The position numbers were made by a program, and so were the translations under genes. The notes under the pieces are model-generated. The model did not search any database. It saw only the letters and a list, made by a program, of their open reading frames with translations, and was not told the origin of the DNA. From Streptomyces sp. Ru72 (GTDB lineage Bacteria > Actinomycetota > Actinomycetes > Streptomycetales > Streptomycetaceae): 64,000 nucleotides of DNA. This document shows positions 23,604-25,691 of the stretch, piece by piece. Where the stretch lies: positions 62,001-126,000 of the forward strand of contig NZ_PQSR01000003.1 in NCBI RefSeq assembly GCF_002920635.1. The letters are read 5' to 3'. The number at the start of each line of letters is the position of its first letter. The stretch's first letter is position 1.

Positions 23604-24626
23604 ATGCTCTCCGGGAACGGTCGTCACCGTCGCCCCCGTCAGGCTCCGGCCCTCCTCGTCGCGGCAGGGGTGACCGGATCAGCGATCGCGATCCCGCTGC
23701 TCGGCGCCACCGGCGCGAGCGCGGCCACCGGCACCACCTGGGACCAGGTCGCGGAGTGCGTCAGCGGCGGCTCATGGAGCGCGGACACCGGCAACGGCCG
23801 CTACGGCGGGTTGCAGTTGACGCAGGACGACTGGGACAAGTACGGCGGTCTCGACTACGCGCCGAGCCCTGACCAGGCGAGCCGCTCGCAGCAGATCGCC
23901 GTCGCCGAGAAGGTCCTGGCGGCCCGGGGTGTCGGGGTCTGGGGGGCCTGCGGCCTGTTGAACGGTCTGAGCAAGGACTCCGGCTCCGCCGACGTCGACA
24001 CCGGTGTGGCCGGGGACTCGCGGTCAGGCGGCGGATCTTCCTCCGATTCCGGCCTCGACTCCGGTCTCGACTCCGGTCTCGGGTCCGGCCTTGACTCCGG
24101 TCTGTCCGACTCGTCCGGATCATCCGCGTCGACCGCTCCGTCGCCTTCTTCATCCTCTTCGTCCGCTTCACCCTCCTCGTCCTCGCCCTCGTCCCGGGCG
24201 TCGACCGCCGGCACCGCCAAGCCCGCACAGGGGTCCGGTGGTGCGCCGACAGCCACGACGAAGAGCTCTGAGTCGGACAATTCCGCACAGAACAATGCCT
24301 CGACCGGGGCGGGTTCGGCCGCGGCCTCGAGTGCCGGCCGTCATCGCGGCGACAGTGCCGACGAGAGTGCCGCGGACGGCCGTACGTCGGACGCGTCCGG
24401 TCGGCACGCCTCGCGTGGCGCCACGGGTGCGCGCGACGCCGTCGACGGCTCGTACACCGTCCGCCCCGGGGACAATCTGTCGTCCATCGCCGACTCCCTT
24501 GACCTCAGCGGCGGATGGACGGCGCTGTACGAGGCGAACAAGCAGACGGTCGGTGCCGACCCGAACCTCATCCTTCCCGGTCAGAGCCTTGCGCTCGACG
24601 CCGCCCCGGCCCGCGACTCGTCCTGA
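23604..24626 (+). CDS. Rpf-type secreted wall hydrolase paralogue with LysM; catalytic glutamate replaced by valine
   Basis: 340 residues from ATG 23604 with AAAGG at 23592-23596. A signal peptide ends near GASAA, then comes a resuscitation-promoting-factor domain (about 41-120). Its active-site motif reads WDQVAECVSGGSW, where the downstream paralogue reads [13 protein letters not shown]. Position 53 is Val instead of the catalytic Glu. YGGLQLTQDDW and the two cysteines remain. A long Ser/Asp/Gly linker follows (about 130-280), then a LysM peptidoglycan-binding domain (about 284-333, SYTVRPGDNLSSIADSLDL). From position it corresponds to S. coelicolor RpfC (SCO3098). It may bind wall glycan without cutting it. 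Confidence 0.88.
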   Translation: MLSGNGRHRRPRQAPALLVAAGVTGSAIAIPLLGATGASAATGTTWDQVAECVSGGSWSADTGNGRYGGLQLTQDDWDKYGGLDYAPSPDQASRSQQIAVAEKVLAARGVGVWGACGLLNGLSKDSGSADVDTGVAGDSRSGGGSSSDSGLDSGLDSGLGSGLDSGLSDSSGSSASTAPSPSSSSSSASPSSSSPSSRASTAGTAKPAQGSGGAPTATTKSSESDNSAQNNASTGAGSAAASSAGRHRGDSADESAADGRTSDASGRHASRGATGARDAVDGSYTVRPGDNLSSIADSLDLSGGWTALYEANKQTVGADPNLILPGQSLALDAAPARDSS

Positions 24627-24781
24627 ACTGCCCGTTCCGTGGCGGAAGTTCACGACCCGCTTCGCGCCCAATGTCCCGTTTGGTGAAAGTGAGATATGGG
24701 TCTCATAAGCCCTGATCGTCTTTGAAATTCCGGCGATCGACTGCTTACGGTCGTGATCGCTCGCCACAGCGAGCCCCTGCG

Positions 24782-24981
24782 GTCGCAACGCCGAATCCTG
24801 CCAGCGGCCGTACGGGAACAGTCGTCGCGTCAAGCGCCGTAGGCAGGAGCGGGGGACCCAAGGTAGGCGCCGCGTCCGGGAGTTGACCGGAAGCGGCTCG
24901 GGGTGAAGCCGTGTCCCGCAAGGGGCACGGCCGGGCAACTCAACCGGCCCGAACCCGACAGCTCACCTCGCAGGCGTCGGT
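24782..24981 (+). promoter_or_regulatory. c-di-AMP (ydaO/yuaA) riboswitch upstream of rpfA
   Basis: The leader shows the conserved ydaO blocks in order: CAACGCCGAATCCTGCC near 24786, GGGGGACCC at 24851, GGGGTGAAG at 24899, and CGAACCCGACAGCTCACCTC near 24950, then GCAGGCG. The aptamer ends about 15 bases before ATG 24996, and GAGGGG (24982-24987) follows directly. In Streptomyces, ydaO riboswitches are known to control rpfA and other wall hydrolases, linking them to c-di-AMP. Confidence 0.9.
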
Positions 24982-24995
24982 GAGGGGAACGAACC

Positions 24996-25691
24996 ATGCT
25001 GTGTTCCGGCAACGGCAAGCACCGCCGCCCGTCCAAGGCCACCCGTGCCGTCGCGCTCGCCGGTGTCGCCGGCGCTGCCATCGCCGGCCCGCTCCTCGCG
25101 GCCGGGAACGCCTCCGCGGCCACCGCCGCCCAGTGGGACGCCGTCGCCCAGTGCGAGTCCGGCGGCAACTGGCACATCAACACCGGCAACGGCTTCTACG
25201 GCGGTCTGCAGTTCACGAACTCCACCTGGGCCGCGTACGGCGGCACCGCCTACGCCTCCCGGGCCGACCTGGCCACCAAGGGCCAGCAGATAGCCGTCGC
25301 CGAGAAGGTCCTCGCGGGCCAGGGCAAGGGCGCCTGGCCGGTGTGCGGCAAGGGCCTGACCAACGCCGCGTACAACGGTTCCGCGGCCGCCGGCTCCTCG
25401 AGCGGCGCGAAGAGCACCACCAAGAAGAGCGCCACCACCCGCTCGACCGGGCAGTCGGCGGCCAACCGCTCCGCGCAGCGCCCGGCGCCGCAGAAGACCG
25501 TCACCACCCCGACCGGCCAGAAGGTCAAGAAGGGCGACGGCGAGTACAAGGTGGTCAAGGGCGACACCCTCAGCTCGATCGCCGCGAGCCACCACGTCCG
25601 GGGCGGCTGGGAGAAGCTCTTCGAGCTGAACAAGAACATCATCCAGGACGCCGACCTGATCTACCCGGGCCAGCAGCTGCACCTGAAGTGA
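24996..25691 (+). CDS. rpfA: Resuscitation-promoting factor RpfA (transglycosylase + LysM)
   Basis: 231 residues from ATG 24996, with GAGGGG 8 bases upstream. A signal peptide ends near GNASAA. The Rpf transglycosylase domain (about 42-122) contains [13 protein letters not shown], where E54 is the catalytic glutamate, plus [11 protein letters not shown] and a paired cysteine (WPVCGKG). A basic Ser/Thr/Lys linker precedes a C-terminal LysM (about 184-230, [16 protein letters not shown]). It cleaves peptidoglycan glycan strands during spore germination and growth. It follows a paralogue that lacks the catalytic residue, and expression should be controlled by the riboswitch in its leader. Confidence 0.95.

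Follow-up and report, generated by a model that had tools for sequence, protein, structure and literature searches.

A natural Streptomyces RpfC with valine at the position of the catalytic glutamate

Introduction

The cutting of peptidoglycan and its binding are hard to separate in the roles ascribed to Rpf proteins. The window analyzed here, the whole 64-kb stretch of DNA, contains two Rpf genes in tandem, and the first of them has Val where the catalytic Glu of this family is expected. Is this Val a regular property of the first paralogue, an error of the sequence, or a true loss confined to some lineages, and what could such a protein still do on the cell wall? No description of a naturally occurring Rpf that lacks the catalytic Glu was found in the literature searched, outside of which many subscription papers lay.

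The corresponding genes of Streptomyces coelicolor are rpfA (SCO3097) and its LysM-bearing homologue SCO3098 (PMC3123327), which is named rpfC (PMC6414726). SCO3098 appears among the listed targets of sigma-E (PMC6767563); bacitracin and moenomycin are reported to induce it and vancomycin to repress it (PMC3123327), and rpfA is controlled by a riboswitch (PMC10117811). Each S. coelicolor Rpf was reported to cleave peptidoglycan, at various levels (PMC11356341).

Results

The rpfC-rpfA locus

An rpfC-rpfA pair of the Streptomyces type lies 5′ of enolase, with a c-di-AMP riboswitch preceding rpfA (Table 1). The rpfC open reading frame begins with an ATG at 23604, and an alternative in-frame GTG is present at 23589. 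The Rpf domains score 103.6 bits (RpfC) and 122.3 bits (RpfA) against PF06737 (Pfam cut-off 27), and the LysM domains, C-terminal in both proteins, score 27.7 and 39.0 bits, respectively, against PF01476 (cut-off 20.9). The N-terminus of RpfC, read by eye, comprises a basic start, a hydrophobic stretch and an ASA-A site, and both RpfC and RpfA look like secreted proteins. Judged by its architecture, its place before the riboswitch-led rpfA and enolase, and the literature, the first gene is an orthologue of rpfC. In 67 of 75 RpfC orthologue loci, a Glu-bearing Rpf motif follows no more than 2.5 kb downstream. The genome to which the window belongs, an 8.51 Mb draft of 278 contigs, encodes five Rpf genes: rpfC, rpfA and three more.

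Upstream of rpfC, an alignment of 74 regions that includes the window's own contains blocks that are more than 90% conserved, most of which the window matches, and this stretch is probably the promoter region. It includes GTGATCTTCACGTGATCT. Elsewhere in the window, a tRNA-Phe(gaa) called by ARAGORN at 4335-4422 (−) runs antisense to a 3561-residue open reading frame at 321-11006 (+) and is probably a false call, and a 1017-residue open reading frame at 30259-33312 (−) has no Pfam match at 1e-5.

Table 1 Features of the rpfC-rpfA locus, in window coordinates.
Feature	Position	Strand	Basis
Conserved stretch 5′ of rpfC, probable promoter region	23454..23533	+	Alignment of 74 upstream regions
rpfC (SCO3098-type), Rpf domain and LysM, Val at catalytic position	23604..24626	+	ORF, Pfam PF06737 and PF01476
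Rpf (lysozyme-like) domain of RpfC	23721..23951	+	PF06737, residues 45-121; model; structural match
Codon GTC, Val at catalytic-Glu position of RpfC	23760..23762	+	Sequence, alignment to solved Rpfs, model
LysM domain of RpfC	24453..24590	+	PF01476, residues 289-334
c-di-AMP riboswitch (ydaO/yuaA leader) 5′ of rpfA	24825..24991	+	RF00379, 63.4 bits (gathering 38)
rpfA (SCO3097-type), Rpf domain and LysM, catalytic Glu present	24996..25691	+	ORF, Pfam
Codon GAG, catalytic Glu54 of RpfA	25155..25157	+	Read from sequence
Enolase, synteny anchor 3′ of rpfA	26107..27393	+	PF00113 and PF03952; start codon read from sequence

The catalytic position and the predicted fold

The first-pass annotation had described tandem Rpf paralogues, the first without the catalytic glutamate (V53) and the second with it (E54), on the basis of the motifs AECVSGGSW and AQCESGGNW. 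The codons and the Pfam assignments bear out this description, and the motifs stand as read. The RpfC motif extends to VAECVSGGSW, where the Val is residue 53 counted from the ATG and residue 58 counted from the GTG. Sequence alignment places this Val at the position of the Glu in the solved structures of M. tuberculosis RpfC and RpfB, and in M. tuberculosis RpfC that Glu is described as the catalytic residue (PMC4648573).

The AlphaFold model of the RpfC Rpf domain, based on a 36-row alignment, has a pLDDT of 91.4. Comparison with the catalytic domain of RpfB (4emn_B) resulted in a Z score of 17.2 and an RMSD of 0.8 over 80 residues, a structural ranking that reports on the fold alone and not on activity. 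Model residues 5-84 superpose on RpfB residues 283-362, 80 on 80, therefore the Val, residue 14 of the model, sits on RpfB residue 292, which we take to be the catalytic Glu. By its PF06737 score, its predicted lysozyme-like mini-fold and its descent, RpfC is an Rpf, and one that lacks the catalytic Glu.

The surroundings of the substituted residue are those of the family. Cys57 and Cys121, a pair that is invariant in 79 Glu-bearing orthologues, are both present, and Gln76, Trp82 and Asp52 are retained. Between residues 30 and 127, Thr47 and the Val are the only states that occur in two or fewer of these 79 orthologues, and relative to them no compensating acid has been gained in the Rpf domain. 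The four other Rpfs of the same genome, RpfA included, all carry Glu.

Distribution among orthologues

Orthologues were sought in named genomes using RpfC residues 60-127 as the query, which excludes the catalytic site. The best 80 of at least 375 confirmed stretches were retained (79 records from Streptomyces and one from Kitasatospora), and stretches less like the query fall outside the count. Glu occupies the catalytic position in 79 of these best 80 orthologues, including five loci that the first regular expression missed and that were read otherwise. The exception, from Streptomyces sp. Y2F8-2 (L006), has Val with the same GTC codon. Thus, Val is not a general feature of RpfC, and that possibility was rejected.

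Pattern searches at the site extended the comparison to the genus. With Val, Ala or Gly allowed, 392 genus genomes yielded 72 places; the DNA of 35 was examined (three Rpf genes and 32 others) and 37 were judged from the motif alone. The three Rpf genes are those of the window's genome and of genome G233, both with Val, and that of genome G255, with Ala. A pattern for codons that do not begin with G at the site gave no match in the 392 genomes, and a class-wide pattern restricted to codons ending in T or C gave no Rpf gene in 374 genomes beyond the window's own. A search of 393 genus genomes, mostly the same set, returned four places, of which the window's and that of G233 are Rpf genes and the other two are not. 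All these patterns demand particular neighbouring residues, and one Gln-bearing Rpf gene, in genome G089, escaped the pattern for codons not beginning with G and surfaced by direct reading. This gene (L217, G089:C1:5294793-5295020) has the motif VAECQSDGNW; the 5.7 Mb genome has nine Rpf matches, and the Gln copy is distinct from the one taken as RpfC there.

Of the 392 genus genomes, 314 gave an RpfC-like motif with Glu, and the remaining 78 did not match it. The Rpf copy at the RpfC position was read in 16 of these 78 (14 of the 15 searched, together with G018 and G034). Each of the 16 proved to have Glu, and it was neighbouring residues that had kept them from matching the motif. The single Rpf match of G120 also has Glu. 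Further genomes without the motif that were read are G011, G015 and G024 (Glu), G233 (Val), G255 (Ala) and that of the window. Among 20 regions read, 16 have an Rpf copy at the RpfC position, with 14 Glu, the Val of G233 and the Ala of G255, where the latter two genomes had entered the set through their pattern matches. Among 63 distinct motif contexts read directly, other paralogues included, 60 have Glu, and the other three are the Val of the window, a Gln and an unreadable residue; in each of two direct-reading sets three loci gave no residue, the match having stopped short of the site.

A Val clade and a second loss

A tree was built from the DNA of the RpfA domain and enolase, with 85 rows; 16 of 101 sequences, in which the search found no rpfA or no enolase, were left out. 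The three Val genomes (the window's, Y2F8-2 and G233) form one group with an SH-aLRT support of 99, and S. spiralis is the closest row with Glu by path. G255 is placed elsewhere, beside S. lanatus, with a support of 85, and the tree requires two changes between Glu and another residue. The Ala of G255 is encoded by GCG (L146, G255:C493:48536-48565). Since this genome is unrelated to the Val group, the catalytic residue of RpfC has been lost at least twice. All four genomes whose RpfC lacks Glu retain it in RpfA.

Over 6-7 kb around rpfC, nucleotide identity is 93.7% between the window and Y2F8-2, 94.0% between the window and G233, and 96.7% between Y2F8-2 and G233. The window's genome and G233 are different species in the collection, and Y2F8-2, which was drawn from another release, may belong to the species of G233. 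The first-pass annotation had proposed aligning position 53 across orthologues and anticipated that, should these carry Glu, the Val would be a strain-specific substitution or an error. The orthologues do carry Glu, yet neither outcome applies, given a clade of three Val genomes and an independent Ala: the replacement of Glu by Val is real and clade-specific, and a parallel loss occurred independently.

Constraint on the Rpf domain

For the three pairs within the Val clade, the Rpf-domain dN/dS values are 0.193 (one-sided binomial P = 0.028), 0.159 (P = 0.010) and 0.219 (P = 0.105); the pairs share branches and are not independent, and each has only 5-9 substitutions. The median Rpf-domain dN/dS is 0.18 for close Glu-Glu pairs (n = 19, dS 0.03-0.15) and 0.46 for 489 pairs with dS between 0.03 and 0.35. 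In the same three pairs dN/dS is 0.24, 0.61 and 1.11 for the whole of rpfA, although its Glu is kept, 0-0.03 for enolase, 0.45-0.71 for the RpfC linker and 0.69-1.12 for the LysM-plus-tail region, a scatter that shows dN/dS to be noisy at such depth. The resemblance to close Glu-Glu pairs thus gives no sign of relaxed constraint in what is a weak test, and the Rpf domain of the Val clade looks, on modest evidence, still constrained after the loss of Glu.

Discussion

The following sequence of events is proposed. In the ancestor of a small Streptomyces clade, Val would have taken the place of Glu, the catalytic acid of RpfC. RpfC would most likely still be secreted and held on the wall by its LysM domain, and its Rpf domain would fold as a mini-lysozyme whose cleft binds glycan strands but cleaves them poorly or not at all. 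Because it would bind wall glycan without cutting it, Val-RpfC could compete with, recruit, position or tune the active Rpfs, which in the window's genome are RpfA and three more. In our judgement, the view of Val-RpfC as a secreted Rpf that is anchored by LysM and still binds the wall, but is impaired in cleavage, has about an even chance of being correct. The first-pass annotation had suggested a pseudoenzyme that binds the wall through LysM; the catalytic position, the predicted fold, the LysM domain and the absence of a new acid relative to the Glu orthologues agree with this, and the loss of cleavage is what we infer from published mutants. In M. luteus Rpf, activity is abolished by E54A or E54K and partly lost in E54Q (PMC11356341, PMC6534110), therefore RpfC with Val is expected to cleave little or not at all.

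A non-cutting binder has two chief rivals: a redundant paralogue that is slowly decaying, and an enzyme with some activity left. According to the former, the activity of RpfC was dispensable beside four other Rpfs, its Glu drifted, and the gene is decaying slowly without a new role. We regard this as unlikely. The number of Rpf genes in the window's genome (five) is in accord with redundancy, as are the germination delay of the S. coelicolor rpfC mutant, reported to be smaller than that of rpfA or rpfE mutants (PMC5693915), and the fast evolution of the linker and LysM-plus-tail regions in the Val clade. However, all four genomes without Glu retain open reading frames with both Rpf and LysM domains, the region upstream of rpfC is conserved, and the dN/dS of the Rpf domain (0.16-0.22) is similar to the median of the 19 close Glu-Glu pairs.

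Residual activity, by which RpfC would cleave weakly or act on other substrates using Asp52, a bound water or the Gln76 region, appears quite unlikely. The M. luteus mutants stand against it, and no acid has been gained in the domain to replace the one lost. In contrast, R. erythropolis Rpf-1 E51A retained 88.8% of its activity on a fluorogenic chitotrioside, a small substrate, compared with 15.6% for D45A+E51K (PMC6534110). Judged by its spacing from the Glu, D45 corresponds to RpfC Asp52, which is kept, as is Gln76, and the loss of RpfC activity is therefore likely rather than certain. The first-pass suggestion that a nearby Asp may take over catalysis thus keeps the retained Asp52 and the active Rhodococcus mutant on its side and has the missing new acid against it; overall, cleavage by Val-RpfC is likely lost or impaired. 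Sequencing or assembly error has next to no chance of being the source of the Val and was rejected, since, although the window comes from a draft of 278 contigs, GAG to GTC takes two base changes and the identical GTC codon occurs in two other, separate assemblies, of which one includes a contig of 9.05 Mb.

Having lost its catalytic acid and little else in the domain, Val-RpfC provides a natural means of asking whether an Rpf needs cleavage in order to act. Comparators are at hand in the Glu-bearing tandem paralogue RpfA and in related Glu-bearing orthologues. The loss of Glu from the same paralogue in two lineages hints that RpfC has a part that needs no catalysis.

Among known systems, the protein of the window resembles S. 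coelicolor RpfC (SCO3098) in architecture and in its place before rpfA (SCO3097), and differs from it in the Val, a comparison made through the best 80 orthologues, 79 of them with Glu, with the SCO3098 sequence itself outside the set. The M. luteus E54A and E54K mutants concern the same residue, but they are engineered whereas the change in RpfC is natural. EnvC and NlpD are catalytically inactive LytM factors, whose fold differs from that of Rpf. Another such factor, DipM, controls active autolysins that include lytic transglycosylases (PMC10336132). The likeness to RpfC would lie in a wall-hydrolase domain without catalysis, which in RpfC would be a clade-limited loss within the Rpf domain.

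The structural matches of the RpfC model also include alpha-lactalbumin (1fkq, Z score 7.6; 3b0k_A, 7.5) and a lactose synthase entry (1nf5_A, 7.7), a likeness in lysozyme-like fold that serves as an analogy only, as Z scores below 8 may mean just a common arrangement. Alpha-lactalbumin has the fold of c-type lysozymes, lacks the lysozyme catalytic Glu, is not lytic and regulates lactose synthase. By this analogy, RpfC might repeatedly become a dedicated non-cutting regulator of active Rpfs through loss of its Glu, much as lysozyme gave rise to alpha-lactalbumin, and a pseudo-Rpf induced by wall stress might restrain or target the c-di-AMP-controlled RpfA during germination, a proposal that we put forward as a long shot.
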